Assembly: GCA_029866325.1 (NCBI GenBank)
Contig: JARWZO010000019.1
Span: 124,001 to 188,000 of the forward strand
Direction of reading: 5' to 3'
Origin: Fluviicola sp.
Lineage (GTDB): Bacteria; Bacteroidota; Bacteroidia; Flavobacteriales_D; Crocinitomicaceae
DNA: 64,000 nucleotides
Part shown: piece by piece, positions 5,376 to 20,034 of the stretch
How the letters are laid out: every line of letters starts with the position of its first letter
Position numbering within the stretch: position 1 is the first letter of the stretch
Notes under the pieces: generated by a model
Database searches by the model: none
What the model saw: only the letters and a program-made list of their open reading frames with translations
What the model was told of the DNA's origin: nothing
Program-made: the position numbers and the translations under genes

Positions 5376-5391
5376 CTTAACTTAAGTGAAC
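5376..5391 (+). promoter_or_regulatory. Crp/Fnr-like box upstream of the 5451 gene
   Basis: CTTAACTTAAGTGAAC: imperfect dyad with centre TTAA, 60 nt before the 5451 start and 54 nt after the Crp/Fnr stop. It agrees with TTTGACCTAAGTCAAA (18043-18058) and CTTAACCCAAGTCAAC (minus strand, 20019-20034); consensus yTTrACyyAAGTsAAm. Confidence 0.55.
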
Positions 5392-5450
5392 GAGTTTGCG
5401 TAGCTCGCCAATCCACTTTTGCAGTATCGTTTCACATAAAAAGAAAAGAA

Positions 5451-6080
5451 ATGCAAAAGAAAATTTTATTCATTGGTTTTGTCTTCATGTTGACAAGTAC
5501 GCTTCACCTCAGAGCTCAATATGCCGCAACAGACAGCACTTACAAACGGTGGTTCGTTGGCAGTTCATTATTTGTTTTATTGGGCAATATTGACACTAAA
5601 AACCCGCCTAACTTCGCTCAACTCAATATCGGCTATCGGATTACAGCAAAAGATGTCATTACATTAGAACCAAAAACATGGAAGTATGCTTGGCCCAATG
5701 GCATTCACCCATTTTTTAGCAAATCATACAAAGATCCGGAAGAACAATTTCCGGGGTATGTTCGTGAGTTTGGCTTATCTGTATCTTATCAACGCTTTTT
5801 TTGGAAAGGTTTATATGCCGAACTGAATGTAATGCCAACCTTGCAAAAATTTGTGAATGACAACGGCAAGAAAATTGACAACGGATTTCAGATTTTCAAT
5901 ACTTACCGTGTGGGTTATCACATCAAACTTTTCAAGGACAGGTTTTTTATTCAACCGTCAATTGCAATTACTCACCGTGCTTATCACACACAATTGCCTG
6001 ACGGATTTAAACAGTTGGATGATAAATGGTCGAAATTCATCTTCGGAGAACCGGGATTTCATTTTGGGTTTAATTTTTAA
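5451..6080 (+). CDS. Secreted outer-membrane-type protein, possibly Crp/Fnr-controlled
   Basis: 209 residues with a signal peptide (MQKKILFIGFVFMLTSTLHLRAQ). The rest alternates aromatic and polar residues as in a small beta-barrel (RWFVGSSLFVLLGNI, FGLSVSYQRFFWKGLYAEL, YRVGYHIKLFKDRFFIQPSI) and ends in ...FHFGFNF with a terminal aromatic, as outer-membrane proteins do. No family name recognised. The box at 5376 and the position next to the regulator suggest it is that regulator's target. Confidence 0.7.
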   Translation: MQKKILFIGFVFMLTSTLHLRAQYAATDSTYKRWFVGSSLFVLLGNIDTKNPPNFAQLNIGYRITAKDVITLEPKTWKYAWPNGIHPFFSKSYKDPEEQFPGYVREFGLSVSYQRFFWKGLYAELNVMPTLQKFVNDNGKKIDNGFQIFNTYRVGYHIKLFKDRFFIQPSIAITHRAYHTQLPDGFKQLDDKWSKFIFGEPGFHFGFNF

Positions 6081-6107
6081 CTGATTAGTCTTAATCATAA
6101 CACTAAT

Positions 6108-6124
6108 TGATTTTAGTAAAATCA
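6108..6124. terminator. Small hairpin after the 5451 gene
   Basis: TGATTTTAGTAAAATCA followed by AAAATT, 28 nt after the stop. An AT-rich stem of seven pairs without a strong T run, so only a possible terminator. Confidence 0.3.
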
Positions 6125-6201
6125 AAAATTCGTAACACATTGCCTTCTATTAATCGATTATTTAGCTTAAGGACAGCGCCAATTCAAGGAAGCGACGTAA
6201 G

Positions 6202-6330
6202 AAAAATGGCTGTTTCGTTGTGTTTTGTCAAAAGCGCGAAAACGTACAGCGTTTGCCAAAACTGCTGTGCGTTGCGTTTCAGATCCTGATCTGCCACTTT
6301 TGACCTTAAAACACAGAAAGAGCCATTTTT
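6202..6330. repeat. Long imperfect inverted repeat in a gene-free stretch
   Basis: Outer arms AAAAATGGCTGTTTCGTTGT (6202-6221) and the reverse complement of ACAGAAAGAGCCATTTTT (6313-6330). Pairing continues inward through TGTTTTGTCAAAAG / CTTTTGACCTTAAAACA. This fills most of the 372-nt gap between genes at 6081-6452. It looks like a dispersed palindromic element rather than attC: there are no GCTAAC/GTTAGC boxes. Confidence 0.6.
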
Positions 6331-6366
6331 CACGAGCGGCTTAGAATGGCGCAAAAGGATGTTTTG

Positions 6367-6403
6367 CTTACTTTTTCATCAGCCTGAGGCTGAAAAAAGT
6401 AAG
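6367..6403. repeat. Strong hairpin before the DUF6326-like gene
   Basis: CTTACTTTTTCATCAGCC, loop TGA, GGCTGAAAAAAGTAAG: a nearly perfect stem of about 17 pairs. It could act as a terminator in either direction or be part of the dispersed element just upstream. Confidence 0.55.
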
Positions 6404-6452
6404 AGAAAATTGTGGTACGATTGAGGCCAATCAAATTTTTAATACATAATTT

Positions 6453-6890
6453 ATGAATACACAAAAATCACAACAAAACACACTGGAAGACATCAAAATC
6501 AGTGTAAAACTGAAGCTTGCTGCACTATGGACGAGTTTTATGTTCCTCTATGCCTATGTAGATTATTTCCATTTATATATGCCGGGTACACTAGAAGATT
6601 TACTGGCAGGCAAGGTATTTGTATTTGACATTTCTCAAACATTTATATTGATAGCACTTGCCGCTTTGACGATTCCGGTATTAATGATTTTCCTTTCTGT
6701 TGCACTGCCGGCTAAAGCAAATCGCTGGACAAACATCATTGTGGCTACGGTTCACATTCCGTATATGTTGTTTAATTTGGCAGGAGAGGCTTGGATCCAC
6801 ATGGTGTTTGGCGCTGTTGTAGAAGTTATTCTTCTTTGTCTAATTATTCGTTATGCGTGGAAATGGCCTCGTAACCAAGCGTCTAACTAA
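6453..6890 (+). CDS. Four-helix membrane protein, DUF6326-like
   Basis: 145 residues. After a polar N-terminus (NTLEDIKISVKLK) come about four membrane helices. The pattern FMFLYAYVDYFHLYMPGTLEDLLAG is what I associate with DUF6326 proteins. Inner membrane, function unknown. The next gene begins 37 nt downstream, so the two are probably co-transcribed. Confidence 0.7.
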   Translation: MNTQKSQQNTLEDIKISVKLKLAALWTSFMFLYAYVDYFHLYMPGTLEDLLAGKVFVFDISQTFILIALAALTIPVLMIFLSVALPAKANRWTNIIVATVHIPYMLFNLAGEAWIHMVFGAVVEVILLCLIIRYAWKWPRNQASN

Positions 6891-6927
6891 ACAGACAATT
6901 TTAACGAAATTTCAAGTGAATGGAATA

Positions 6928-7332
6928 ATGAAAAAACTGATAAACTATTTTTCCGAAAAACAAAAGACACTTTTTCTTATTGACAGTATAGGAGCGTTTA
7001 TGACTGCATTTTCTCTCTTTGTTATTGTGCGACAATTTAATGCGTATGTCGGAATCCCAAAAAATGAATTGACTCTCCTTTCGGTAATAGCAGTTTGTTT
7101 TTCTACTTATTCCGCTGCTTGTTTTTTGTTTTTAAAAAGAGGTTTGACACCTTTTATCAAGTTCATTGGTATTGCAAACTTAATCTACTGTGCATTGACA
7201 ATCGGGCTACTGATGAAATACTCCCATTCGTTGACAATTCTGGGAACAACCTATTTTTTGATTGAAATAGTAATTATTTTAGGACTTAGTTATGTCGAAC
7301 TTAGGGTGGCAACAAGAAATAAAGAAAAATAG
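6928..7332 (+). CDS. Small integral membrane protein, unknown
   Basis: Start ATG 6928 (MKKLINYFSEKQKTLFLIDS). An ATG at 6853 in the same frame would overlap the upstream gene by 38 nt and add an unlikely polar leader. 134 residues with four predicted membrane helices (SIGAFMTAFSLFVIV, LLSVIAVCFSTYSAACFLFL, FIKFIGIANLIYCALTIGLL, TTYFLIEIVIILGLSYVEL). No family recognised. An attC-like element follows. Confidence 0.72.
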   Translation: MKKLINYFSEKQKTLFLIDSIGAFMTAFSLFVIVRQFNAYVGIPKNELTLLSVIAVCFSTYSAACFLFLKRGLTPFIKFIGIANLIYCALTIGLLMKYSHSLTILGTTYFLIEIVIILGLSYVELRVATRNKEK

Positions 7333-7372
7333 ATCGCTTGACAAGTAAAGGAATGAGAAGAAAACACGGCTC

Positions 7373-7498
7373 GTAACAGCTGTTTTAAGCAATGGCTAGT
7401 TTATTTTTCTTAGCCGGAAAGTACAAAAAAGTTAATTCTATATCTTTACAACTATACACTAATAGTATCCGCACTAAGTAAAACTGCGCCGAGTTAGT
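7373..7498 (+). repeat. attC-like palindrome
   Basis: Left GTAACAGCTGTTTTAAGC, right GTAAAACTGCGCCGAGTTAGT. The arms match in structure rather than exact sequence (GTAAC...TGTTTTA / TAAAACTGCG...GTTAG), as attC sites do. It separates the membrane-protein gene from the metallo-beta-lactamase gene. Confidence 0.4.
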
Positions 7499-7539
7499 GG
7501 TAATTTAAGAGCGCCCATAATCAATAGACAAGAAACTGA

Positions 7540-8277
7540 ATGAAAACAATAATAATGACAATAACTTTCTTCTTCTCGTTGACCATTTTTTTTGGACAGA
7601 GCGAAGAACCTAAACTTAAAATAGCACACCTGACAGGTGACTTTTATATTTATACAACTTACAATACTTACGAAGGAAATCAACTACCAGCAAATGGGAT
7701 GTATCTCGTTACGAATAATGGTGTAGTACTGTTTGACACGCCTTGGGATACAACGCAATTTCAACCTTTGCTTGATAGTATAAAATTGAACCATAACAAA
7801 AATGTGGCAGTTTGTATTGCAACACATTGGCATAGCGACAGAACTGATGGCCTTGAATATTACAAAGAGAAAGGAATTAAAACCTACACAACCAAACTAA
7901 CAGATGAGTTGAGCAAAAAGAATAATAAGAAAAGGTCTGAATTTTTAATTGAGAAGGATACAATTTTCAACATTGGACAATATACATTTGAAACTTATTA
8001 TCCGGGACAAGGACACACAGAAGACAATATCGTTTTGTGGTTTAATGAAGACCATATTCTTTATGGAGGTTGTTTGATAAAAGGTGCCGAAGCCGAAAAT
8101 TTAGGCTATTTAGGAGACGGTAATGTTTCTGAGTATGAAACAACACTCAAAAATGTACAGCAAAAATATCCTGACCCCAAATTTGTTATTGTATCACATC
8201 ACGATTGGAATAATATAAACTCATTGAAACATTCCATCAAGATGGCAAAAAAACTTAAAAGGAAAAATAGAAAATAA
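7540..8277 (+). CDS. Subclass B1 metallo-beta-lactamase
   Basis: 245 residues with a signal peptide ending near FFGQ20. All B1 zinc ligands are visible: H96-x-H98-x-D100 (ATHWHSDR), H159 (GQGHTEDN), C178 (YGGCLIKG) and H220 (VSHHDW). The C178 ligand is what marks subclass B1 over B3 and generic MBL-fold hydrolases. B1 enzymes hydrolyse penicillins, cephalosporins and carbapenems in the periplasm; the nearest well-known relatives by motif are the chromosomal flavobacterial enzymes (IND, BlaB, JOHN types). The gene stands alone between two attC-like elements, so it looks like a cassette. Activity is inferred, not shown. Confidence 0.88.
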   Translation: MKTIIMTITFFFSLTIFFGQSEEPKLKIAHLTGDFYIYTTYNTYEGNQLPANGMYLVTNNGVVLFDTPWDTTQFQPLLDSIKLNHNKNVAVCIATHWHSDRTDGLEYYKEKGIKTYTTKLTDELSKKNNKKRSEFLIEKDTIFNIGQYTFETYYPGQGHTEDNIVLWFNEDHILYGGCLIKGAEAENLGYLGDGNVSEYETTLKNVQQKYPDPKFVIVSHHDWNNINSLKHSIKMAKKLKRKNRK

Positions 8278-8284
8278 AACTGCC

Positions 8285-8333
8285 GCTAAACACCGGTTTA
8301 GCTTCGCTGATTTTCAATTAGCAATATGTTAGC
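8285..8333 (+). repeat. Short attC-like palindrome
   Basis: GCTAAACACCGGTTTAGC opens 7 nt after the lactamase stop; GCAATATGTTAGC closes at 8333. The left part is itself a small palindrome. At 49 nt it is compact compared with the others. Confidence 0.4.
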
Positions 8334-8414
8334 ACTTCCATCAAAACCACTAATTGTTCCAAGCAGACAAACAATTCCGACTTTTTAATCTTCTGACAAA
8401 AATTTGAGAATAAA

Positions 8415-8450
8415 TTTGCGAAACCGAAAAGTTGCACATATATTTGCAAC
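8415..8450 (+). promoter_or_regulatory. Promoter and dyad operator of the first ArsR-SRPBCC pair
   Basis: Bacteroidota-type promoter: TTTG (8415-8418), 20-nt spacer, TATATTTG (8439-8446). A dyad GTTGC-N10-GCAAC (8431-8450) covers the -7 element, and TTTGC(g)AAaCCGAA is repeated at 8415 and 8444. A repressor bound here would block the polymerase, as for ArsR-family autoregulation. The layout matches the promoter at 20299-20345. Confidence 0.6.
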
Positions 8451-8480
8451 CGAATGGTTTCACGAATAAAAAACAGACAA

Positions 8481-8801
8481 ATGAGACGAGACATTTTTCA
8501 AGCTATTTCAGACCCGACAAGACGAGCAATCATCGTTTTAATTGCATTACAGGCAATGACACCAAACGCCATTGCCGAACACTTTGACACGACCCGACAG
8601 GCTGTTTCAAAACATCTTCGCATTTTAACAGAGTGTGAACTCGTAAAACAAGAACAACAAGGACGAGAAATTTACTACTCACTTGAAATCAACAAAATGA
8701 AAGAAATAGACAAGTGGCTTGAACAGTTCAGAAAAATTTGGGAAACCCGTTTCAACCAACTTGACCAAGTATTATCAACAATTAAAAAACAGAAAAAATG
8801 A
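8481..8801 (+). CDS. ArsR-family winged-helix regulator
   Basis: Start chosen at ATG 8481 ([17 protein letters not shown]), where the paralogue at 20349 also begins its conserved sequence; ATG 8454 is only 8 nt past the -7 box. About 106 residues: winged helix with recognition helix [21 protein letters not shown] and wing [10 protein letters not shown]. No metal-binding cysteines, so this belongs to the ArsR subgroup that pairs with SRPBCC proteins rather than sensing arsenic. It overlaps the next start by 4 nt and is translationally coupled to it. Confidence 0.88.
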
Positions 8802-9295
8802 ATAATCTATTATTTGACTTCACATTAGACAAATCAACAAAGACGGTATTCATAACAAGAGAATTTGATGCCGACCAATCATTGGTATGGGATGCCTTTA
8901 CCAAAAAAGAAATTCTTGACCAATGGTGGGCTCCTAAACCCTTTGAATCAAGAACAAAAGTTATGGACTTTAAAGTAGGTGGACGGAGATTTTATGCAAT
9001 GGTAAGTGCAGAAGGGCAGGAATTAAATTATTCAATTCAAACTTATACAGCTATTTCACCAAAAACTAATTTCAAGTTTGAAAGTGTGTTTGCTGATAAA
9101 GACGAAAATCCTTTTCCTCCTGGTTCAAATTGGGATTTAACTTTTAGCGAAGAAAATGGAATAACAAAAGTGAGTATTTCTATTTATAACGAATCGCTTG
9201 AAAGAATGGAAAAGATGATAGAAATGGGCTTCAAAGAAGGTTTCACAGCTACCTTGAATGAATTAGGGAGTTTATTACAAACACTTAATAAATAA
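8798..9295 (+). CDS. SRPBCC / AHSA1-like protein
   Basis: 165 residues of the START-like SRPBCC superfamily. [36 protein letters not shown] is the classic AHSA1 (activator of Hsp90 ATPase 1-like) beginning; the rest is the antiparallel sheet and long C-terminal helix ([18 protein letters not shown]). These proteins bind hydrophobic ligands in a cavity. The ATGA overlap with the ArsR gene is the standard arrangement of this two-gene module. Ligand unknown. Confidence 0.87.
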
Positions 9296-9299
9296 CACT

Positions 9300-9902
9300 A
9301 TGAAAAATACACTTAAATTATTGACAGCCGTAATAATAGCGACTGTAGTGGGTTGTGGAAATTCTCAACAGAATTCACACGAAAACGGTAAAACTAATAC
9401 AACCTCAAATCAAACTGCAGTAAAGAAGACTGATATGATTTCGCAAAAAATAACTCCTTGCCTTTGGGTTGAAACAACAGACGCAAAAGCAGTAGCGGAT
9501 TATTACTTATCAATATTTAAAGACGGTAAATTAAAAGGGCATCATAAATACACAAATCCACCAGAAGCAGGTGGCGGAAACTTTGAAACTGCCATTATTG
9601 AAATTGCAGATATGGAATTAAGTATTTTGGCAGCAGGGCCATTTTTTAAATTTAATGAATCTGTTTCGCTTGTCATTAACTGCAAAGACCAAGCAGAAGT
9701 AGATTATTATTGGAATGCCTTGACTTCAAACAGTGGACAAGAAAGTTCTTGTGGTTGGTGTAAAGACAAATATGGCTTATCGTGGCAGGTTGTTCCTGTT
9801 GAATATTTTGACCTAATTAACAGCGATAACCCTAAGGTTAGAGAAAAGGCATTGAAAAATACACTTACCCAGAAAAAAATAATTTTATCCGAACTTAAAT
9901 AA
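9300..9902 (+). CDS. Lipoprotein-anchored VOC (PhnB-like) protein
   Basis: 200 residues. A lipoprotein signal (ATVVGC19) and a Ser/Thr/Asn-rich linker precede a VOC/PhnB-like domain from about residue 46: KITPCLWVETTDAKAVADYY, FETAIIEIADMELSIL, then DKYGLSWQVVPVEYFDLI. Members of this clade are normally cytoplasmic, so export by a lipobox is unusual. It follows the SRPBCC gene by 4 nt and is probably in the same transcript; a second VOC gene follows. Confidence 0.8.
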   Translation: MKNTLKLLTAVIIATVVGCGNSQQNSHENGKTNTTSNQTAVKKTDMISQKITPCLWVETTDAKAVADYYLSIFKDGKLKGHHKYTNPPEAGGGNFETAIIEIADMELSILAAGPFFKFNESVSLVINCKDQAEVDYYWNALTSNSGQESSCGWCKDKYGLSWQVVPVEYFDLINSDNPKVREKALKNTLTQKKIILSELK

Positions 9903-9926
9903 TAACGATCAAAACAAATAGAATCA

Positions 9927-10352
9927 ATGGCACAAATTAATCCGCACATCAATTTTAATGGTAATGCAGAAGAAGCATTTACCTTTTACAAATCAGTATT
10001 TGGAGGAGAATTTTCAAAGGTTGTTCGCTTTAAAGAAATTTCAAGCCCTGAATATCCTATACCTGCAAACGAAGAAAACAAGCTAATGTATATTTCTTTA
10101 CCTATTGGTAGTAGTGTTCTAATGGCTAACGACATTTTAGAGGTTATGGGTAAAGTAAGTGAAGAAGAAAATAGAAGCAAAATTTCAATAAGCGCAGAAA
10201 GCAAAGAAGAAGCCTACAAATTGTTTAACGAACTTTCAACAGGTGGACAAGTTGAAATGCCTATTGACGAAAATCACGATGGGACTTATTTTGCTATGTT
10301 TAGAGACAAATATGGAATTGAGTGGATGGTGAAATTTGACCCGAAGAAATAA
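9927..10352 (+). CDS. VOC family protein (PhnB-like glyoxalase fold)
   Basis: 141 residues with the PhnB-like pattern INPHINFNGNAEEAFTFYKSVFGGEF at the start, an internal ...ISLPIGSSVLMANDIL strand, and the ending MFRDKYGIEWMVKFDPKK. Cytoplasmic, about the usual length for the family. It lies 24 nt after the lipoprotein VOC gene, giving a four-gene unit ArsR-SRPBCC-VOC-VOC (8481-10352) that ends at the best attC-like element in the window. Confidence 0.85.
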   Translation: MAQINPHINFNGNAEEAFTFYKSVFGGEFSKVVRFKEISSPEYPIPANEENKLMYISLPIGSSVLMANDILEVMGKVSEEENRSKISISAESKEEAYKLFNELSTGGQVEMPIDENHDGTYFAMFRDKYGIEWMVKFDPKK

Positions 10353-10396
10353 CGTATAATTCAACTGTGTTCACCGACAGAAAAAGAAAAATGGAT

Positions 10397-10490
10397 GCTA
10401 ACAGCGGTTTGGCGTAATGGCGGGTGGTGTTCTTCTTCGAAAACATTTGTGGTAAAAATCCGCCACTACGCCAAGTCGCAAACCGTTAGC
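10397..10490 (+). repeat. Best-preserved attC-like site
   Basis: 94 nt. Left arm GCTAACAGCGGTTTGGCGTA then ATGGCGG; right arm CCGCCACTACGCCAAG, TCGCAAACC, GTTAGC. The boxes read R'' GCTAAC, L'' GGTTTGGC, L' GCCAAG, R' GTTAGC. The right arm has unpaired extra bases (the TCG in AAGTCGCAAACC), like the extra-helical bases that set attC polarity. The closing box differs from the strict GTTRRRY consensus at one base. Confidence 0.7.
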
Positions 10491-10527
10491 TGACGGAATT
10501 CGAATGCATATTTTTGCTCACAACAGC

Positions 10528-10560
10528 AGAAGCTTTTAGGACAAGTTATTCAGGCTTTTC
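10528..10560 (+). repeat. 33-bp direct repeat, copy 1
   Basis: AGAAGCTTTTAGGACAAGTT followed by ATTCAGGCTTTTC. The second copy at 12101-12133 differs at one base. Both copies lie 3' of an attC-like element and upstream of a gene. Confidence 0.7.
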
Positions 10561-10593
10561 CCCCGAACGCGAAGTCATGAAACCTTATAAATC

Positions 10594-10842
10594 ATGAAGT
10601 AAAAACTCAGCGTAATACTATTAACTCTCATTTGTTTCAATTCCGAAAGTCAAGTGACCAATTGACAAATAGAATTTCAAAACGAGATAACCATTTTTGA
10701 AGTTGTTATTGTTGAACTAGCTGGAATTAAAACTTTATGTGACTCTTCGGGGCATTTCACAGTTAAAAATTATACTGCGAAATCACTACTTTCGTGTAGC
10801 TTAACTAAAATTGACTACTCTTCAATCTTAACAATTAGATAA
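10594..10842 (+). pseudogene. Broken secreted-protein gene (CarboxypepD_reg-like fragment)
   Basis: One frame runs 82 codons with two in-frame stops: TAA at codon 3 and TGA at codon 25. Between them are a signal-peptide-like stretch (KLSVILLTLICFNSESQ) and then ITIFEVVIVELAGIKT and LCDSSGHFTVKNY, which resembles the beta-sandwich CarboxypepD_reg domain ('...V.G....T.tde.G.F.l'). A single-base change (AAA to TAA) at codon 3 would explain the first stop. This fills the 420-nt gap before the Na/Pi gene. Confidence 0.4.
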
Positions 10843-10910
10843 AATTGCATTTACTTGTTTGACTCTTAAATAACTTAAAATTACGCGCTAAATTATTACT
10901 TAACTAGTGT

Positions 10911-11852
10911 ATGACAGAAATTTTCCTTTCAATTATTGCAGGTTTGGTTTTGTTTCTGTTTGCTGTAACCAATTTGTCTGAAACACTTAAATCTGCACTA
11001 GGTGAAAATGCCAATAGTTGGATTAAAAAATATACATCCAACTCTTTTAGTAGCCTACTAGTTGGCATAGTTGTTACCGCTTTACTTGATTCTTCGTCTG
11101 CCGTAATTATAATTACAATTGTACTAGTCAATTCGAAGATATTGACTTTTAGACAAGCAATGGGTATTGTTTTAGGAGCAAATATTGGAACAACGGTCAG
11201 CAGCCAAATAATAGCAATGGACGTAGGCAAGTATTCCCCTATTTTTCTTCTAATAGGGTTCATACTTCTCTTTGTAGCAAAAACGGAAAAACTAAGTAAC
11301 ATTGGAAAGACTATCTTATTTTTTGGCGTTTTGTTTTTTGGACTTTTTACGATGGAAAATGCAGTAGAACCGCTCAAGGATGAGGCTTTTTTTTCTGAAT
11401 GGATGAAAAAAACAGAAAATCCATTCCTAGGAGCAATGATCGGAGCGGTTGTAACTTTAGTAATTCAGTCTTCATCAGCAACTGTTGGAATGGCAATCAT
11501 TTTATCCAAAAAGGGTCTTATCAGTCTAACTGGTGGCATAGCAGTAATGTTAGGAGCGGAATTAGGAACATGCAGCGACACACTCTTAGCAACAATTAAA
11601 GGAAGCAGACAGGCACTCAAAACAGGATTATTTCATATCACATTTAACCTTCTATCGATCATATTAGGTCTTGTTTTGTTTTATCCGTTTGTTGAATTAG
11701 TAAAAACCATAAGTTCAGGGGTATCGATAGAACGAACAGTTGCTAATGCACACATGTTTTTTAATATCTTCGGTGTTTTAATTTTTATTTGGACTATCCC
11801 ATTTTTTGAAAGGATACTCAATAAAATATTGCCTGATAAACTACCAACATAA
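10911..11852 (+). CDS. Na/Pi cotransporter family protein (NptA-like)
   Basis: 313 residues with two inverted PF02690-type repeats. Repeat 1 has VVTALLDSSSAVIIITIVLV and GANIGTTVSSQ; repeat 2 has VVTLVIQSSSATVGMAIIL and GAELGTCSDT. The duplicated (Q/D)SSS motifs form the substrate and sodium site in this family. It is an inner-membrane transporter, probably for phosphate, and lacks the C-terminal PhoU-like domain seen in longer bacterial members. The start ATG follows a 420-nt gene-poor stretch. Confidence 0.85.
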   Translation: MTEIFLSIIAGLVLFLFAVTNLSETLKSALGENANSWIKKYTSNSFSSLLVGIVVTALLDSSSAVIIITIVLVNSKILTFRQAMGIVLGANIGTTVSSQIIAMDVGKYSPIFLLIGFILLFVAKTEKLSNIGKTILFFGVLFFGLFTMENAVEPLKDEAFFSEWMKKTENPFLGAMIGAVVTLVIQSSSATVGMAIILSKKGLISLTGGIAVMLGAELGTCSDTLLATIKGSRQALKTGLFHITFNLLSIILGLVLFYPFVELVKTISSGVSIERTVANAHMFFNIFGVLIFIWTIPFFERILNKILPDKLPT

Positions 11853-11863
11853 ATGAGCAAACG

Positions 11864-12066
11864 CATAACGTGGGTTTTGCGTTAGTGGGCAGACATCTCC
11901 CCTATCTTCAAGTATGCAATTTATTCAAGGAGAAATGGCGAGTCATCTCTGCGAAATACAACGAAGCAGATGAATGTTTTATGGATTTCTGACTGGAATT
12001 CTTTTATCAAACTCACATTATTAACCTGAGATCAGCCACGCCAAAAGGTGCCTCCGACTTAGTCGC
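11864..12066 (+). other. Possible long attC-like element in a gene-free gap
   Basis: ATAACGTGGGTTTTGCGTTA at the left and CAGCCACGCCAAAAGGTGCC then TCCGACTTAG at the right pair weakly. The position just after the Na/Pi stop fits an attC, but at about 200 nt the arms are poor. The rest of the gap to 12228 holds the second 33-bp repeat and nothing else I can support. Confidence 0.2.
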
Positions 12067-12100
12067 GATGGACACGGCTTTAAATTTTGTTCAGAGCACT

Positions 12101-12133: not shown

Positions 12134-12228
12134 TTTCTTCAGTGAATAACAACTTCCTTCAGCCAGAATACTGACCTTTAAATTGTCAACTACAATAGGG
12201 GTTATATTATTCACTTCGTTTACATTAC

Positions 12229-12781: not shown

Positions 12782-12787
12782 CAATTA

Positions 12788-13765
12788 ATGAAAAAAATCA
12801 GCTTTCATTTTCTTTTTTGGATATTCATTGCATTATATGTTTTTGATTATGTCATTGATCTGTATGATCTAAAATACAGTATTCTCTTTACCCTTTTTGA
12901 AACTGCCATTTATGCGCTGGTATTTTATGTCAATCTCCTTGTTTTATTGCCGCTTGTTTTAGAAAAAAAAGGGAAACTTCTTTACGCAGCTAGCTTATCA
13001 TTCTTATTTGCTATCACTTATGGGTTGGTTGTTGTAGCCGGATTAAAAGAGAACTTACTGTCTTCAGATTTCGCGAGGTCAATCGCTTCCTTTCTATTAA
13101 ACAATTCGCTCTTTATTGTAATCGCCTACTTCGTGTGGTATTTTAATAAATTTGAACAGGAGAAACAAAAACGACTACAAACAGAAAATGAAAAATTGCA
13201 GTCTGAATTATTGTTTTTAAAATCTCAAATAAATCCCCATTTTTTGTTCAATTCGCTCAATAATATTTACACGCTAACCTTATTGAAAAATGATAATGCT
13301 CCTAAAATGCTCGCCGCTTTATCAGAAATACTTCGCTATTTTATTTATGAGGGAAACAAAGAAACCGTTTTTTTAGATGCCGAAATTGAAGTAATTTCAA
13401 AATACATCGAATTGCAAAAATACCGGCAAATCGTAGGCATGAATAATATTCATTCTGAGGTAGTCGGAAGTACATCCGGATTAAAAGTACCACCCTTATT
13501 GTTCATCACATTAATAGAAAATGCGTTTAAACACAGCGATATTATTGAAGATGCAACTGGCTTTGTTGACATTCGATTTAATATAACCGAAGATAAAATC
13601 GAATTTAAGATCAGCAATTCCTATCATCCGAAAGAAAAAAGCGAGGGCATTGGATTAAAAAATGTGGAATCTCAATTGGCGATATTATACGGCGAAAATT
13701 ATGTTTTTAATGTAACTGAAGAAAACAACAACTTTACGATCAATCTTTGCTTATATGGAAGCTAA
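12788..13765 (+). CDS. LytS-type sensor histidine kinase
   Basis: Start ATG 12788 (MKKISFHFLFWIFIAL) chosen over GTG 12758 because of the -7-like box between them. About 325 residues: four N-terminal membrane helices to about residue 120, a short coiled coil (KFEQEKQKRLQTENEKLQSE), then the His_kinase domain with SQINPHFLFNSLNNIYTL (H about 151). An ATPase with LLFITLIENAFKHS as N-box and EGIGLKNVESQL as G-box follows. It phosphorylates the regulator encoded by the next gene, overlapped by 11 nt. The stimulus is unknown. Confidence 0.9.
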   Translation: MKKISFHFLFWIFIALYVFDYVIDLYDLKYSILFTLFETAIYALVFYVNLLVLLPLVLEKKGKLLYAASLSFLFAITYGLVVVAGLKENLLSSDFARSIASFLLNNSLFIVIAYFVWYFNKFEQEKQKRLQTENEKLQSELLFLKSQINPHFLFNSLNNIYTLTLLKNDNAPKMLAALSEILRYFIYEGNKETVFLDAEIEVISKYIELQKYRQIVGMNNIHSEVVGSTSGLKVPPLLFITLIENAFKHSDIIEDATGFVDIRFNITEDKIEFKISNSYHPKEKSEGIGLKNVESQLAILYGENYVFNVTEENNNFTINLCLYGS

Positions 13766-14483
13766 AACAAAATATACCTGTTTGATAGTTGATGATGAAG
13801 CGATTGCCCGGCAGTTAATCCAAAGGCATTTACTACAATTTCCAAGCATCGAAGTTGCTCAATCCGTTGGTTCAGCCATTGAAGCAAACGACTATCTAAA
13901 AACGCATGAAGTTGATTTGTTGTTTTTAGATATCCACATGCCGAAACTTTCAGGATTGGATTTTTTAAAATCATTATCAAATCCGCCCAAAGTTATCTTT
14001 ACAACTGCCTATTCAGAATTCGCATTAGAAGGTTTCGAATTAAATGTAATCGATTATTTATTAAAGCCCATTACGATAGAACGTTTTACCAAAGCAGTAA
14101 CGAAAGTCCTTGAAATCTTTAAGCTCGAAAATCAGATAAAGGAACCTTCGAGTGTAAATTCAACGAACACATCAATCGTCATTAAGTCAAGCCACCAATT
14201 AATAAAGGTTGATCTTTGTGATATACTCTACATTGAAGGTCTTCATAAATATGTCAAAATCATCACCAACGACAAAAAATACACTTCACTGATTGGCCTT
14301 ACTGCATTTGAAAAAGAACTAGTAACAGAAACGTTTTATCGATGCCACCGATCCTATATCATCAATCTTGAAAAAATAAAACTCATCGATGGCAATCAAG
14401 TCATGATCGGTTCTTTCAATATCCCGATTAGCAAAAATAACAGGGCGGAATTGATTGCAAAAATGGGGAAAAAGATAGGGTAA
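13755..14483 (+). CDS. LytTR response regulator
   Basis: 242 residues. Receiver domain 1-120: acidic pocket DDE at 13-15, phospho-acceptor D59 (LLFLDIHMPKLSG), T-loop TTAYSEFALEGF, conserved K in LLKPITIERF. LytTR DNA-binding domain about 140-242 (IVIKSSHQLIKVDLCDILYI, then YRCHRSYIINLEKI). Partner of the kinase just upstream. Such pairs act on the nearest genes; the exported deiminase-like gene 100 nt downstream is the obvious candidate target. Confidence 0.92.
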   Translation: MEAKTKYTCLIVDDEAIARQLIQRHLLQFPSIEVAQSVGSAIEANDYLKTHEVDLLFLDIHMPKLSGLDFLKSLSNPPKVIFTTAYSEFALEGFELNVIDYLLKPITIERFTKAVTKVLEIFKLENQIKEPSSVNSTNTSIVIKSSHQLIKVDLCDILYIEGLHKYVKIITNDKKYTSLIGLTAFEKELVTETFYRCHRSYIINLEKIKLIDGNQVMIGSFNIPISKNNRAELIAKMGKKIG

Positions 14484-14585
14484 TTGGATTTCCGTACCCA
14501 AAACCGGTCGTTTGGGAGAAAAGATTTTTATTCATTGAAATGCAACAATAAGTTTGTGTCATACAATCGTTAAAACAGTTCCATT

Positions 14586-16004
14586 ATGAAATCAATTTAT
14601 AAATTATCAACCGTGTTATTTGTTCTTTTAGGAATGAACACCAACTTAGTAGCTCAAACTTATACTATGCCAGCTGAAACCTTAGAGCATGAAGGAACCT
14701 GGCTGCAATGGCCACATCAATATGAATACGGGATTACTTATCGCAACAGATTGGATGCCACTTGGGTTGCCATGACAAGCGCTTTGGTAGGCAGCGAAAG
14801 GGTTCACATTATAGCCTACAACGCAACGGAACAAACCCGAATCACGAACTTGTTGACAGCAGCTAGTGTCAATATGACACAGGTTGATTTTAGGTTATTT
14901 CAAACAAATGATGTTTGGGTAAGAGACAACGGCCCAATTTTCGTAAGAGATACAGACGGAGATTTGACCATTGAAGATTGGGGCTTCAACGGTTGGGGAG
15001 GCGATTATAATTATGAGCTATGCGATCCAATACCTACAGCTGTGGCAAACGCGATGAGTATGCCAATAGTAAACTTGAATTCAGTGATGACAATTGAGGG
15101 CGGATCCTATGAATTAGATGGCACCGGAGTTCTTTTGGCAACAAAAAGCTCCATCTTGGCTCAAACAAATTCTGGTGGTGCGCTAGCAATCAGAAATCTC
15201 GGAATGACGCAATCACAGGCAGAAACTATTCTGACGCAATACATCGGAGCAACCAAATTTATCTGGCTCGACGGTTTTTTAGGTCCGGATGACATTACCG
15301 ATGCTCATATTGATGGCTTCGCTAAGTTTGCCAACGACAGCACATTGGTAACTATGAGCAATTCCGATTTAACTAATTGGGGACTCTCAGCAACGGACAT
15401 TGCTACGCTTTATGCAGCAAGCGATGTGGATGATCTTCCTTACTTTAAAGTGTATGTTCCGCTGACGCAAAATAATGTGGTAACAACTTACGGATACGAC
15501 TTAGGATATAAAGGTTCGTATTGTAATTATTACATTGCTAACAATGTTGTATTAGTGCCAAACTACAATGACCCTAATGATGCTGTTGCCAACGCTATCA
15601 TCCAAGATTTGTATCCGGATAGAACCGTTGTAGGTATTGATTGCCGGAATTTATATGAAAACGGCGGAATGGTTCATTGCGTAACACAACAACAACCTGT
15701 AGCTTCTGAAACATCGGGGGTTAACGACAAGCTAAAAGGTGAATCAAAAGTTGGACGAAACTTCCCAAACCCTTTTAATCAAACAACAACAATTAACTTA
15801 GCTCTTGTTAACAACGCAAATATTCAAATCATCATCTATAATTCTTTGGGACAAATAATTTCTAAACCAATTAACTCAAATTATTCGGCAGGCAATAATT
15901 CATTGACAATTAGTGCTGACGACTTACAAAATGGTATTTATACTTATGTGGTGACAATTGACAATCAAAATTCCATGAGCGGACGAATGGTAGTTTCAAA
16001 ATAA
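14586..16004 (+). CDS. Secreted agmatine deiminase / PAD-family protein with T9SS tail
   Basis: 472 residues. A signal peptide ends near LVAQT. The catalytic domain (about 27-375) is the bacterial peptidyl-arginine deiminase/agmatine deiminase fold: NDVWVRDNGPIFVRD, DAHIDGFAKF and the nucleophile C365 in GGMVHCVTQQQ. After it comes a type A T9SS sorting domain (NFPNPFNQTTTINLAL, ending GRMVVSK). Typical agmatine deiminases are about 350-370 residues and cytoplasmic; this one is exported and probably released or attached at the cell surface. The substrate may be agmatine or peptide arginine. TAAGTTTG at 14549-14556 is a possible -7 box. Confidence 0.88.
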   Translation: MKSIYKLSTVLFVLLGMNTNLVAQTYTMPAETLEHEGTWLQWPHQYEYGITYRNRLDATWVAMTSALVGSERVHIIAYNATEQTRITNLLTAASVNMTQVDFRLFQTNDVWVRDNGPIFVRDTDGDLTIEDWGFNGWGGDYNYELCDPIPTAVANAMSMPIVNLNSVMTIEGGSYELDGTGVLLATKSSILAQTNSGGALAIRNLGMTQSQAETILTQYIGATKFIWLDGFLGPDDITDAHIDGFAKFANDSTLVTMSNSDLTNWGLSATDIATLYAASDVDDLPYFKVYVPLTQNNVVTTYGYDLGYKGSYCNYYIANNVVLVPNYNDPNDAVANAIIQDLYPDRTVVGIDCRNLYENGGMVHCVTQQQPVASETSGVNDKLKGESKVGRNFPNPFNQTTTINLALVNNANIQIIIYNSLGQIISKPINSNYSAGNNSLTISADDLQNGIYTYVVTIDNQNSMSGRMVVSK

Positions 16005-16034
16005 ATTGGTATGATGAACGAAGATAGCACAGCA

Positions 16035-16081
16035 GGTAACAGCAGATTTGCTCATCGTTGGGCTGAGTTGCAAACTTGAAA
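16035..16081 (+). repeat. Degenerate attC-like palindrome
   Basis: GGTAACAGCAGATTTGCTCA and CTGAGTTGCAAACTTGAAAC pair imperfectly. It sits between the deiminase and the lipoprotein gene. Weak. Confidence 0.25.
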
Positions 16082-16142
16082 CTTTGTGCTCTGAAATTCG
16101 TCTTATCACAAGGCAAAACCATTTACAGATAACTCAATGCCA

Positions 16143-16727
16143 ATGCAAAAAAACATCATAATTATACTCATATCTACCATTATGGTAGCGTGTGGAAATG
16201 ATAACTCTTCAAACGCTAACAAGAATATTCCTAATTTGGATTTATTAACCGGATTGAGCTGGTACGAAAGAGTTTTGGAAACGAACAACCTAATTAACAC
16301 CAATACTAAAAATCCAATTCCTGAAAATCTCACCCATTACTTGCAATCAATTGACAGTAATTTTAGGTTGGCAAGTGATGGTGAGATCTGGCGATCAGGA
16401 TGCACTCCAATTCTGATTGTCGATACCAACAATACTGTGGCCCGTCGCGATGAAAAGACAGGCAAAATTTGGTTAACTAGTAGTTATATTGAAGTTGATG
16501 CACCAACACGGAAATTGGTTTATTTCGGACAAAATGAAAAAATGGCTGCTTTGATATATATGTCAGGTGGAATTGGGGTAATGCAACATTTATTTTTATT
16601 CAAGCTTAAAAAAGGTAAGATCGTAGAGTATTGGCACGGAAATACAAACGGAGATATTAGCACTCAAAAAGAAATACTGAAGAAGATAAAAAACAAAGAA
16701 CTCGAAGAAATTTCAAGTTACATTTAA
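16143..16727 (+). CDS. Lipoprotein of unknown function
   Basis: Start ATG 16143 (ATG 16137 is equally possible). A signal of about 16 residues ends in the lipobox IMVAC. The mature part of about 175 residues has DLLTGLSWYERVLETNNL and WLTSSYIEVDAPTRKLVYFG. No family recognised. It is likely anchored in a periplasm-facing membrane leaflet. A perfect 8-bp-arm palindrome follows 18 nt after the stop. Confidence 0.65.
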   Translation: MQKNIIIILISTIMVACGNDNSSNANKNIPNLDLLTGLSWYERVLETNNLINTNTKNPIPENLTHYLQSIDSNFRLASDGEIWRSGCTPILIVDTNNTVARRDEKTGKIWLTSSYIEVDAPTRKLVYFGQNEKMAALIYMSGGIGVMQHLFLFKLKKGKIVEYWHGNTNGDISTQKEILKKIKNKELEEISSYI

Positions 16728-16744
16728 GAACGAATTGTCACTAA

Positions 16745-16762
16745 CTTTGATTACAATCAAAG
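16745..16762. promoter_or_regulatory. Perfect palindrome resembling an FNR box
   Basis: CTTTGATTACAATCAAAG: 8-bp perfect arms. The inner TTGATtacaATCAA has the same form as the classical FNR site TTGAT-N4-ATCAA. No T run follows, so it is a poor terminator. It lies 67 nt before the next gene. Confidence 0.4.
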
Positions 16763-16828
16763 GTCTGAGATGTAATAGATCGGTAGGATCAAAGCATTTA
16801 GCAACAAACCGCCAGTGCCCAATTCTAA

Positions 16829-17344
16829 ATGAACAAGTTAACTGACACGACAAAGCAGACATTTTACCGATTTCTTAATGGTGACTTACCAATTAAGGAC
16901 TTTGAACAATGGGTTTATACATCAAGCGACAACCTTGAGGCAGAATTACAACCCGACTTCCATCTTGACTTGATATCCTTTAATTACAACCAAAAGGACA
17001 ATTTTCGACAAATTGGAAATAAAATTAAAACGCACATAGACGCGAAAGAATTTACTATTTGGAGAACAAAAAGACTGTTGAACGACATTATTGAAAACAA
17101 GATTGACTTGGTGTTGGCGACAAGAAAACTCAGAGAACTATACTTAGAAACAGGCGAAAACTTTATGCCCATAACTCTTGGCGTCGGTTATGAAAGTGTC
17201 CTAGATGATGTGCCGACACCTGCTGAGTATAAACAATGGGAAAGTGAGGCATTGAAACACGTATTAAAAAAAGTTGATTGGTATAAAGACGACATCATTA
17301 GAGACACAAAACAGTTTCTTGACACTTTGAACAGAATGAAATGA
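16829..17344 (+). CDS. Hypothetical cassette-type protein, 171 aa
   Basis: A soluble, all-helical looking protein: FYRFLNGDLPIKDFEQWVYT near the start, WRTKRLLNDIIENKIDLVLATRKLRELY in the middle, ENFMPITLGVGYESVLDDVP, then a closing helix. This plan (short capture helix 'dFE.WvY', then a helical body) is common in small stand-alone Bacteroidota genes of unknown function, some of them immunity-like, but I cannot name a family. No signal peptide. Confidence 0.65.
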   Translation: MNKLTDTTKQTFYRFLNGDLPIKDFEQWVYTSSDNLEAELQPDFHLDLISFNYNQKDNFRQIGNKIKTHIDAKEFTIWRTKRLLNDIIENKIDLVLATRKLRELYLETGENFMPITLGVGYESVLDDVPTPAEYKQWESEALKHVLKKVDWYKDDIIRDTKQFLDTLNRMK

Positions 17345-17463
17345 ATACATCTGGGCACTTGACAAAATTCTCTTATCTTTCATTCTTCGAGTGAAGGACA
17401 AGAACTTCAGCAAAGCGGCGGAGAATTTAACAGCCATTCTAAACCGGCAAACCGATACGAATA

Positions 17464-18030
17464 ATGACACTTTACATTGACAAAATAAACAATTACATTA
17501 AAGCTCTTGATACCGAGACCTTGATGGCTTTAGAAGGTATTTCATCCGATAAAAAATATAAAAAAGGTGATTTGCTTTTACAACAAAATGAAATCTGCGG
17601 AAAAAGCTTTTTGTTGATTGATGGCATTGCTCGAAAATACTATCTAAATGACGGTAAAGAAATTACAACCGAACTGTACTTTGAAAACGACTTAGCGGTT
17701 TCATTTGATAGTTATACGTTGCAACAACCAAGCAGAGAGTTTATAGAAGCTCTGACTGATGTTAGCGTTTCGATAACTCACTACCGTGCATTTGAGGAAG
17801 CTAAAGCAAGGTTCCCAAAGTTGGTTCATTTGGATTTAATGTTTGTAGAACACTATGGGATGTGGGTTGAAAACAGATTGTTTCAATTTCATACCATGAC
17901 GGCAACAGAACGTTATTTAGACATTCTTAAAAAAAGTCCACACATTGTTCAAACCGTTCCGCTCACAATTATCGCTTCTTACCTTGGCATTTCTTTAGAA
18001 ACATTAAGCAGGATAAGAGCCAAAATTTAA
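17464..18030 (+). CDS. Crp/Fnr-family transcriptional regulator (second copy)
   Basis: 188 residues with the same plan as the protein at 4744: sensor barrel (KKGDLLLQQNEICGKSFLLI, ARKYYLNDGKEITTELYF) and C-terminal winged helix (TATERYLDILKKSPHIVQTV, then IIASYLGISLETLSRIRAKI). No iron-sulfur cysteines. A 16-bp dyad, TTTGACCTAAGTCAAA, begins 13 nt after the stop and precedes the DUF418 gene. A related box stands in front of the minus-strand DUF4386 gene at 20019, suggesting a local regulon. Confidence 0.87.
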   Translation: MTLYIDKINNYIKALDTETLMALEGISSDKKYKKGDLLLQQNEICGKSFLLIDGIARKYYLNDGKEITTELYFENDLAVSFDSYTLQQPSREFIEALTDVSVSITHYRAFEEAKARFPKLVHLDLMFVEHYGMWVENRLFQFHTMTATERYLDILKKSPHIVQTVPLTIIASYLGISLETLSRIRAKI

Positions 18031-18042
18031 TCGTGTTCATTA

Positions 18043-18058
18043 TTTGACCTAAGTCAAA
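18043..18058 (+). promoter_or_regulatory. Crp/Fnr-like box upstream of the DUF418 gene
   Basis: TTTGACCTAAGTCAAA: perfect 6-bp arms around CTAA, 56 nt before the 18114 start. Same consensus as 5376-5391 and 20019-20034. Confidence 0.6.
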
Positions 18059-18113
18059 TTACCGGTGTTTTTCTATGTTGAAATTTGTAACCGAATGAAA
18101 ATTATATAGAAAA

Positions 18114-19208
18114 ATGAATACTCGAATAATAGGATTTGATTTGGCAAGAGCATACGCGATTTTCGGAATGTTTATCGTGAATTTTAATACCGCTTTTGGC
18201 AGTCATACCAATCACAATGGAATAAGTGGTTTTCTGAACCTATTCAATGGCAATTCGAGCACCGTTTTTGTAATGCTGGCAGGCATGGGTGTTTCGTTAA
18301 TGACCAACAGAAACGATTACACCCTCGAAGAAAGAAAAAATATCAAAAGCATCATTACAAAGCGCTCGTGGTTTCTATTTGTTTTGGGTGTGGTCTTTTA
18401 CCTTTGGTGGCCTGCCGATATTTTGCATTTTTATGGCGGCTACATGCACATTGCCTTGCTACTTATTTTCTTTCCGAAGAAATACTTCTTATATGCAGCA
18501 GCGGCAGCTATCATTATCTTCCACGTACTATTGGCTATGGTTCCTTATGACACAGGCTGGAATTTTGAAACCTTGATGTACAATGACTTTTGGACGTTAA
18601 AAGGATTTCTACGAAACACGTTTTACAATGGTTGGAATTCAATTTTCCCATGGATAGCTTTTTTCTTACTAGGTATGTATTTAGGACGTTTAGACTGGAA
18701 AGACAACAAAACACCTAAAAGGACATTACTAATTGGTATTGCGGGCTACCTTATCACGTTTGTTATTCAAACATACGCTACTTCAATTACGCAAGACAAA
18801 GACTTGGTGTTTTACTTGACTGCGGATTATCTTCCACCATTTGTACCATTTATGGTGGGGACTGCTTCATTCGGATTAATACTCATAAGCATTTTTATCT
18901 TTATTGGGAATAAAGTCGGAGAAACCAAAATTGCCAAGATCTTGGCATCAACAGGACAAATGACCTTGACACATTACATCGCCCATTTAGTAGTTGGACT
19001 TCTTTTTTTATCAATCATTACAGGCAAAACGCTTGGTTATGATTTGCTAAAAGAAACACCTACAAACCCAATTACCATCTTGACTTTTGCAATCACCTAT
19101 TTTTTCCTAAGTTGCGTATTTAGTTATCTTTGGACAAAAAAATTTAAGAATGGGCCACTAGAAATGATCATGAGAAAAATATCGGACCGACAGAAGAGCA
19201 GCAGCTAA
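18114..19208 (+). CDS. DUF418 / YeiB-like multipass membrane protein
   Basis: 364 residues with about ten membrane helices. The N-terminus GFDLARAYAIFGMFIVNFNT is the hallmark of the YeiB/DUF418 and related acyltransferase-like group. Other features are YGGYMHIALLLIFF, FPWIAFFLLGMYLGRLDW and the C-terminal STGQMTLTHYIAHLVVGLL. Inner membrane; an acyl-transfer role is proposed for the wider superfamily, unproven here. A Crp/Fnr-like box lies upstream and an attC-like element overlaps the stop codon. Confidence 0.85.
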   Translation: MNTRIIGFDLARAYAIFGMFIVNFNTAFGSHTNHNGISGFLNLFNGNSSTVFVMLAGMGVSLMTNRNDYTLEERKNIKSIITKRSWFLFVLGVVFYLWWPADILHFYGGYMHIALLLIFFPKKYFLYAAAAAIIIFHVLLAMVPYDTGWNFETLMYNDFWTLKGFLRNTFYNGWNSIFPWIAFFLLGMYLGRLDWKDNKTPKRTLLIGIAGYLITFVIQTYATSITQDKDLVFYLTADYLPPFVPFMVGTASFGLILISIFIFIGNKVGETKIAKILASTGQMTLTHYIAHLVVGLLFLSIITGKTLGYDLLKETPTNPITILTFAITYFFLSCVFSYLWTKKFKNGPLEMIMRKISDRQKSSS

Positions 19209-19288
19209 CTTCGGTTTTGCAAAATTTGACGGTTGAAGTGCTTCCACGATTAGCAGTGCGGATCGTTTATCAAAACTTTAACCGTTTA
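19204..19288. repeat. attC-like palindrome between convergent genes
   Basis: GCTAACTTCGGTTTTGCAAA at the left overlaps the DUF418 stop; ATCAAAACTTTAACCGTTTA at the right overlaps the 3' end of the minus-strand DUF4386 gene. The arms pair imperfectly (AACttCGGTTTTG / AAAACTTTAACCGTTT). Confidence 0.35.
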
Positions 19289-19955
19289 CATGCTGCTTCG
19301 AGAAATCAAATCCTTTGATAATCAACCAAAAACTTAAGAATAGCTCAAATAAACCTCCGGGAATATCTAAAATCACATCAATGCTGATTCCAAAAAGTGC
19401 AAATATGGCTCCTGAAACAAAAATGACATAGCCTATCAATCCCCAAATGGATAGCCATTTAGGAACCAATTTCGACACGAATAGCAAATAAGAAAAAATC
19501 AATCCGCCAAGTCCCCAAACAACCATGGCTAGTTGGTAAGAAAAGAAATTCGCCTTTTTACACAATACAAATAACAGTTCATACTGTTTCGTATCGCCAT
19601 TACCAACTTTGCCAAACTCTTCGCTTAATGGCACAAGCAATAGTAAAAAAATGGCCCCAACAATTAAAAGAACCGTTGATACAATTGTAGCGCTCAAATA
19701 ACCGTACGCCAACGTTCGATTAAAGCGCTTAAATATCGGAGTCATGATTACTCCTAATATGATATTTACAGGTGCAAATACAGCCATCATAATAGCCGCT
19801 TCAACAATGAAAAGATTCTTTGAATGAAAGATCGAGGCAAGACTACTTGAAGAATCAATCTGCGTGTTTAACATTCCGAAACCGATACCGTAAGAAAAAT
19901 AACCGATTAGAAAGGCTATTCCAAAAGTTCTCGCAGCAATTTTGTTTGAATTCAT
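19278..19955 (-). CDS. DUF4386 membrane protein
   Basis: 225 residues with six membrane helices, start codon at 19955. The pattern is that of DUF4386: ARTFGIAFLIGYFSYGIGFG, FIVEAAIMMAVFAPVNIILGVIM, YELLFVLCKKANFFSYQLAMVVWGLGGLIF, then LVPKWLSIWGLIGYV. Inner membrane, unknown function. It is the first minus-strand gene in an otherwise plus-strand array. A Crp/Fnr-like box lies 64 nt upstream of its start on the minus strand. Confidence 0.82.
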   Translation of the reverse strand: MNSNKIAARTFGIAFLIGYFSYGIGFGMLNTQIDSSSSLASIFHSKNLFIVEAAIMMAVFAPVNIILGVIMTPIFKRFNRTLAYGYLSATIVSTVLLIVGAIFLLLLVPLSEEFGKVGNGDTKQYELLFVLCKKANFFSYQLAMVVWGLGGLIFSYLLFVSKLVPKWLSIWGLIGYVIFVSGAIFALFGISIDVILDIPGGLFELFLSFWLIIKGFDFSKQHVNG

Positions 19956-20018
19956 AATACGTGTTTTATGTAAATTAATAATGACAGCACAAAACTACCT
20001 CGGCATTTTTCTATCTTC

Positions 20019-20034
20019 GTTGACTTGGGTTAAG
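20019..20034 (-). promoter_or_regulatory. Crp/Fnr-like box upstream of the DUF4386 gene
   Basis: On the minus strand CTTAACCCAAGTCAAC; differs from the 5376 site (CTTAACTTAAGTGAAC) at three positions. It lies 64 nt from the DUF4386 start. Confidence 0.5.

Follow-up and report, generated by a model that had tools for sequence, protein, structure and literature searches.

Do two paralogous regulators that are encoded close to each other and accompanied by similar DNA boxes share one site, or does each of them read its own? This question is raised by a stretch of 64,000 nucleotides (nt) of Fluviicola sp. (assembly GCA_029866325.1, contig JARWZO010000019.1, positions 124,001 to 188,000; hereafter, the window), which contains three 16-nt boxes matching the consensus YTTRACNNNAGTSAAM and genes for two small Crp/Fnr-family regulators, Crp1 and Crp2 (Table 1). 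In an initial annotation, the boxes were regarded as a common palindromic site through which both regulators act on nearby genes, forming one small local regulon. Our analysis suggested that a different arrangement is most probable, in which Crp1 and Crp2 would each form a separate regulator-target module of the class II Crp/Fnr kind, and box 3, being of a third type, would belong to an orphan promoter. Boxes 1 and 2 themselves very probably represent Crp/Fnr sites, each belonging to the promoter of the gene that follows. Below, C-numbers denote contigs of this genome and L-numbers denote the loci examined.

Position of the boxes and frequency of the bare motif

An exact motif search of the window located all three boxes on the strands and at the positions of Table 1, as initially annotated. 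Their placing was also borne out: box 1 is flanked by the Crp1 gene and the one at 5451, box 2 by the Crp2 and DUF418 genes, and box 3 is 63 nt ahead of the ATG of the DUF4386 gene. The three do fit one consensus; calling them near-identical was generous, as box 1 differs from box 3 at 3 of 16 positions and from box 2 at 5. The number of matches does not raise the motif above background, and the evidence lies in position and conservation. When up to two mismatches were allowed, the window had 7 matches versus 3.08 expected, a number reached by 5 of 100 shuffles. The whole 4.68 Mb genome had 5 exact matches, three being the window boxes. The fourth (C11) is seemingly inside a reading frame, as judged by eye; the fifth (C9:80030) is the same 16-mer as box 3 and precedes a zinc-type dehydrogenase gene, whose convergent neighbour is another Crp/Fnr gene. 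A match with one mismatch, on C6, was located directly behind yet another Crp/Fnr gene. Genome-wide, 100 matches with at most one mismatch were found versus 182 for a reversed control, which speaks against the arrangement proposed above; a background rate throughout the genome, which the initial annotation had named as a ground for refutation, is formally what the bare motif displays. Because its count was below that of the reversed control, enrichment of the bare motif was rejected as proof.

Table 1. Regulators, boxes, promoter elements and target genes in the window
Feature	Position	Strand	Remarks
Crp1, small Crp/Fnr-family regulator, 192 amino acids	4744..5322	+	Recognition helix GIKPQSLSRL; PF00027, E-value 1.6e-8
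Box 1, predicted Crp1-type operator	5376-5391	+	Core TTAACTTAAGTGAA, 5377-5390
-7-like element CACTTTTG	5414..5421	+	23 nt after box 1 core; imperfect
Box 1 target, 209 amino acids, no Pfam family	5451..6080	+	Signal-peptide-like start (by eye)
DUF6326 protein	6453..6890	+	Pfam
Crp2, small Crp/Fnr-family regulator, 188 amino acids	17464..18030	+	Recognition helix GISLETLSRI; PF00027, E-value 4e-7
Box 2, predicted Crp2-type operator, FNR-like	18043-18058	+	Core TTGACCTAAGTCAA, 18044-18057
-7-like element GAAATTTG	18080..18087	+	22 nt after box 2 core; imperfect
Box 2 target, DUF418/acyltransferase-like protein	18114..19208	+	PF04235, E-value 1.2e-18
Box 3 target, DUF4386 protein	19278..19955	-	PF14329, E-value 1.7e-33
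-7 element TAGTTTTG, full TAnnTTTG	19990..19997	-	22 nt after box 3 core
Box 3, predicted PESLSR-type operator	20019-20034	-	Core TTAACCCAAGTCAA, 20033-20020

A fixed distance between box and promoter element

In all three window promoters, the 14-base core of the box is followed, at a distance of 22 or 23 nt, by the start of a -7-like element. Among the 100 genome matches, NAnnTTTG at this spacing was present in only four, which are the four intergenic exact boxes; across 100 spacings tested in the flanks of these matches, the element occurred 27 times in all. A box followed after 22-23 nt by NAnnTTTG is here called a composite. The same distance was observed for 44 boxes, belonging to 40 of 81 Crp/Fnr genes, that were picked blind to the -7 element: within a search range of 0-60 nt, 23 of 24 TAnnTTTG and 34 of 36 NAnnTTTG occurrences had a spacing of 22 or 23. 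With the -7 element taken to cover about -11 to -4, the centre of the box would be near -41. This operator position is established for class II activation by CRP and FNR, and the class II site of FNR, TTGAT-N4-ATCAA, is found near -41.5. With its spacing of 22/23, the box would thus be phased to the core promoter in the way of a class II operator, given a start deduced from the -7 element. The -7 consensus of Bacteroidota, TAnnTTTG, has been described (PMC2483708, PMC7366714); according to the available text of PMC7366714, the -7 element was confirmed in Flavobacterium johnsoniae and a -33 motif could not be identified. In our opinion, an undetected -33 fits promoters in which an activator takes its place.

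Occurrence of the composite at Crp/Fnr genes

In a first set of 81 Crp/Fnr genes, which leaves out a truncated duplicate (L117), the composite was located behind 35 genes and before the convergent neighbour of 16, that is, at 51 of 81, when 0.03 were expected from 100 shuffles of 2-base blocks. Because the pattern had been tuned on part of these loci, the rules were fixed beforehand and a new sample was drawn with the C9 regulator as query. This held-out sample had 49 new genes and was scanned with bases 3 and 12 free and at least four of five half-site pairs symmetric. The composite was found in 23 of the 49, with 22 distinct boxes (two L220 genes share one), versus 0.04 expected. In the Fluviicola genome itself, 6 of 14 PF00027 genes had a composite and one more (on C6) had a box with an imperfect -7 element.

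These numbers bear on the idea that the boxes are ordinary promoter parts, such as an unusual -33 element, or cassette-end sequence, and unrelated to Crp/Fnr proteins. Such a view would accord with the background level of the bare motif and with cassette-end-like repeats that occur between genes of the region. It appears very improbable, given how far the composite exceeded the shuffles beside the Crp/Fnr genes of both sets and that box letters track the regulator rather than the target, as described in the next section. Both specific forms of this idea were rejected: the attC-like repeats are different sequences, and a box that was a conserved promoter part of the target should not vary with the regulator within a target family, as it does. 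Autoregulation was also considered, and no composite was detected divergently upstream in 82 genes. Direct upstream matches in L049, L057 and L117 are not autoregulatory; these composites lie behind genes cut by the locus edge.

Correspondence between recognition helix and box letters

The recognition helix of Crp1 (pQSlsRL) aligns with that of Escherichia coli FNR (vETisRL), a member of the same family. We found that the residue at the position of the FNR Glu goes with the downstream half of the box, as read at box base 12 of strict composites. In the first set, Gln was associated with GTGAA in 16 of 16 cases and Glu with GTCAA in 34 of 34, and Val with GTTAA in one. The held-out genes gave 7 of 7 for Gln and 9 of 10 for Glu (23 of 23 and 43 of 44 when both sets were pooled), and held-out Pro helices had GTGAA in three cases and GTTAA in two. 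The upstream half also followed the helix: TTG was present with Glu-Thr helices (15/15 in the first set and 5/5 held-out), and TTA with [K/Q]PES helices (16/16 and 3/3) and with KPQS helices (13/13 and 5/7). Besides, TPES had TTG in 3 of 3 cases, TAES had TTG in the single case and TPQS had TTA in 3 of 3.

Because Crp1 (PQSLSR) and Crp2 (LETLSR) are of different types, box 1 would be a site of the Crp1 type and box 2 of the Crp2 type, instead of a single shared site. The common site suggested initially was thus not supported, as the type of the box follows the helix of the adjacent regulator. The term palindromic calls for caution, as the Crp1-type box is one-way asymmetric in nearly all cases. 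Boxes of the PQS and PES types mostly have TTAAC upstream, with GTGAA or GTCAA downstream. The symmetric form TTCAC..GTGAA occurred in L073, L209 and L231, and a scan for reverse-oriented composites (TTC or TTG upstream, TTAA-end downstream) yielded 0 in the first set. A one-way operator is puzzling for a presumed homodimer.

On a regulator tree built without the helix columns, one Gln/Glu switch was observed in the strict set and three with relaxed boxes, all matched by the box; for example, L073 has Gln within a Glu clade and the box TTCACTTAAGTGAA, and L100 has Glu within a Gln clade and GTCAA. A descent-corrected formal test of helix-box co-evolution did not reach significance, there being too few switches. 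A stronger argument than this test is that, within a single target family, different regulators are accompanied by different boxes. Proteins homologous to the 5451 protein, which represent the commonest target among 74 extracted, form a family of 21 members: 18 have GTGAA behind PQS or PPS regulators, two have TTGAC..GTCAA behind KPET and one has TTAAC..GTCAA behind KPES. Similarly, the DUF6326 group has six GTGAA boxes behind KPQS and one GTCAA behind KPES (L075, a member linked to the window protein only via another member).

This partition is also a difficulty for a local regulon in which Crp1 and Crp2 read a common palindrome and jointly control three promoters. That reading would explain why three boxes of one consensus are found within 15 kb and account for 3 of only 5 exact genome matches, and Crp/Fnr proteins can tolerate half-site differences. 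We nevertheless consider it improbable, as the letters partition with the recognition helix in held-out genes too, the box changes with the regulator within one target family, and box 3 equals the box of a regulator-target pair on C9 rather than that of Crp1 or Crp2. In place of the single regulon we propose separate modules, the site classes of Crp1 and Crp2 differing by both helix and box.

Conservation next to orthologues and exchange of targets

Absence of the motif next to orthologues had been named as another ground for refutation, and the result was clearly the opposite: boxes 1 and 2 were encountered again behind most Crp1 and Crp2 orthologues that were found. For Crp1 orthologues, this is the box TTTCTTAACTTAAGTGAACG with few changes. 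The -7 element of box 1 is imperfect; all 15 remaining Gln-type composites in the first set have TAnnTTTG. In L054-L058, the Crp1-type box is immediately followed by a gene for a homologue of the DUF6326 protein (77-81% identity). In two Crp1 orthologues (L088 and L089), a further composite with an identical core is located 820-875 nt past the first, so that a single regulator may have two targets nearby.

A search for related loci with Crp2 as query returned five loci only. Among Crp2 orthologues (52-86% identity), the site was conserved downstream of the stop codon, at a distance of 4-63 nt: TTGACCTAAGTCAA is present behind L045, L047 and L049, and variants of it in L048, L083, L084, L086 and L087. 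In L046 the site has ATGACC instead of TTGACC, and in L085 it has one extra base, as judged by eye. In L045, L047 and L086, Crp2-type boxes precede a gene group instead of DUF418; a small multidrug resistance (SMR) transporter is encoded by the member that was scanned (in L045). We interpret this as a change of target, with regulator and site retained.

Box 3 and a possible partner on another contig

Box 3 is of the type TTAAC..GTCAA, which goes with [K/Q]PESLSR regulators, not with Crp1 or Crp2. The recognition helix was read in 11 of the 14 PF00027 genes of this genome, and KPESLSR was found only in the C9 regulator, whose box is the same 16-mer as box 3. In other genomes, relatives of DUF4386 were located directly behind or opposite PESLSR-type regulators (L062, L064, L107, L112, L113, L121 and L200). 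Altogether, DUF4386 targets had TTAAC..GTCAA with KPES, QPES or KAES in seven cases and TTGAC..GTCAA with TPES or TAES in two; of the latter, L076 was assigned by Pfam and L233 by its BLAST link to L076. Among the 74 targets, the best match of the window DUF4386 protein was the L112 partner (33%). L112 and box 3 agree in box core and -7 element, and the L112 and C9 regulators share 55% identity. Since box 3 is of the PESLSR type, is identical to the C9 box and resembles L112, and since the three PF00027 genes of C12:105-188 kb, including the window, are of other types, we assigned it to the C9 pair. It is somewhat probable that box 3 and this pair form one regulon. Box 3 would then most likely be served in trans by the C9 Crp/Fnr protein, or its partner may now be lost.

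Alternatively, Crp2 or Crp1 may serve box 3 through closeness, though it would be an atypical site for them. Crp2 is only 2 kb from box 3, whose downstream half GTCAA is common to box 2 and upstream half TTAAC to box 1. This remains a doubtful explanation, as DUF4386 partners elsewhere are PESLSR-type regulators and a regulator of this type with an identical box exists in the same genome. The initial view that both regulators act on nearby genes was retained for boxes 1 and 2, with predicted sites before the next gene, and not extended to box 3, which is of a third type.

Proposed mechanism and comparison with known systems

In the model that we favour, boxes 1 and 2 would be operators for the Crp/Fnr protein encoded directly ahead of each. 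The regulator, presumably a signal-switched homodimer, would bind the box centred about 41 nt before the transcription start, contact RNA polymerase at the Bacteroidota -7 promoter and turn on the next gene as a class II activator. Each regulator gene would make up a self-contained module with its local target, and the recognition helix would set the letters of the box, giving Crp1 and Crp2 separate sites. Box 3 would be the same kind of promoter for DUF4386, of the PESLSR type and served in trans. The sequences, their conservation, the fixed spacing and the association of box letters with the helix are observed here; from them we infer binding, a positive rather than negative sign of regulation, the position of the transcription start, a signal and the trans link of box 3.

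With regard to the sign of regulation, the proteins could instead be repressors, the box blocking polymerase and the modules being silent as long as no signal releases the protein. Blocking by a site that covers the -33 region can occur as well, and the computed data do not separate the two signs. Repression is unlikely, as exact 22/23-nt phasing to the -7 element is needed by class II activation and not by a repressor.

Besides the low count of the bare motif, several observations weigh against the proposed modules. The strict composite was not found for 30 of 81 regulators of the first set and 26 of 49 of the held-out set, and in the Fluviicola genome none was found at the other 7 of 14 PF00027 genes, with L031, L036 and L042 examined by a simple pattern scan only. 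Among Crp1 orthologues, no box was seen in L091 (76% identical) and only a degenerate one in L097; a close Crp1 relative, L226, also had no strict composite. The -7 elements of boxes 1 and 2 have CA and GA for TA. Exceptions to the helix-box correspondence were L218 (held-out, Glu with GTTAA), L093 (Gln with GTTAA, relaxed set) and two held-out KPQS regulators, L209 and L231, with TTC in the upstream half (TTCAC). The correspondence as a whole involves few independent switches and is not significant after correction for descent. Finally, 2 of 5 DUF4386 homologues outside this genome (L120 and L122) had no box in the DNA examined; in L120, a Crp2-type gene is located 3.5 kb from the DUF4386 homologue.

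Both regulators have the N-terminal sensor domain of the cNMP-binding type (PF00027, above cut-off). The C-terminal winged helix is recognizable by the Crp1-FNR alignment, which extends through the helix; Pfam reports no separate helix-turn-helix domain. They do not belong to the FNR subfamily proper: by eye, neither has an N-terminal 4Fe-4S cysteine cluster, and the NCBIfam FNR model gave 26 bits for Crp1 (cut-off 228) and no match for Crp2. FNR-like features are the class II distance and the sites themselves, TTGAC..GTCAA of the Crp2 type and TTGATTTnnATCAA of the TPET/TLET regulators L034, L039 and L104. Unlike FNR, Crp1 and Crp2 have about 190 amino acids, no evident iron-sulphur cysteines, a Bacteroidota -7 element and a local target, and the Crp1 and PESLSR types have a fixed operator asymmetry. 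The closest solved chain to both is PDB 3dn7 ("Cyclic nucleotide binding regulatory protein"), of the same length class (3dn7_A; E-value 4e-24 for Crp1, followed by FNR, and 7e-15 for Crp2), whose recognition helix, TPEYLSEIR, is unlike theirs. Within the same phylum, HcpR of Porphyromonas gingivalis is a Crp/Fnr protein reported as a heme/nitric oxide sensor (PMC12750200). As far as its description in the available text allows a comparison, it likewise activates a specific target gene (hcp), and its target family differs from those of Crp1 and Crp2. We found no description of modules of the kind proposed here in the literature searched, which mostly did not cover subscription journals, so that one may be in print.

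Genomic setting and implications

If the pairs predicted here are correct, two nameless regulators and several proteins of unknown function would be assigned to regulator-target pairs whose promoters are mapped exactly, and a testable rule would be available for which base each Crp/Fnr paralogue of Bacteroidota reads. More tentatively, Bacteroidota may carry many plug-in switches, each composed of a small Crp/Fnr gene, its own class II operator and an exchangeable target, with paralogues kept apart by a helix-to-base code and one-way operator asymmetry, and some switches located in, and maybe moving with, integron-like cassettes. Under such a code, Glu would read GTCAA and Gln GTGAA, and Thr after Glu would give TTGA in both halves. 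Targets could be swapped or, like DUF4386, could move on their own and be controlled by a regulator encoded in another part of the genome.

The region before and into the window looks integron-like in layout. A tyrosine recombinase gene (C12:114318-115397, L192:9318-10397, minus strand), with XerA and integron integrase as closest models, both below their cut-offs, heads a set of same-orientation repeats between small gene groups. A search of the genome for integron integrase (TIGR02249) gave matches below cut-off only, and because the recombinase is under this cut-off we do not claim an integron. Three copies of a 141-nt repeat, 91-96% identical, were located between genes (L192:11213-11353, 12931-13071 and 16228-16368), with ends complementary to each other (TAAC..TTTGGC and GCCAAG..GTTA). 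Less perfect copies in the same orientation occur in the window at about 1581-1706, 2497-2530, 2939-3016, 4635-4696, 10399-10488 and 20061-20122, including partial copies before Crp1 and beyond box 3. Similar repeat ends were present within 400 nt upstream of 4 of 79 regulators (0.02 expected). A third Crp/Fnr gene, with the helix ITLETLSRI, lies 2 kb before the window (C12:121382-122035, L192:16382-17035); its FNR-like box TTGATTTACATCAA overlaps the stop codon and a -7-like element follows 22 nt on. Within the window, positions 8454-9295 and 20349-21142 contain two similar gene pairs, in each of which a gene for an ArsR-type regulator is followed by one for a protein of about 160 amino acids; the regulator genes, of which only the second was domain-scanned, are 74% identical over 194 nt.

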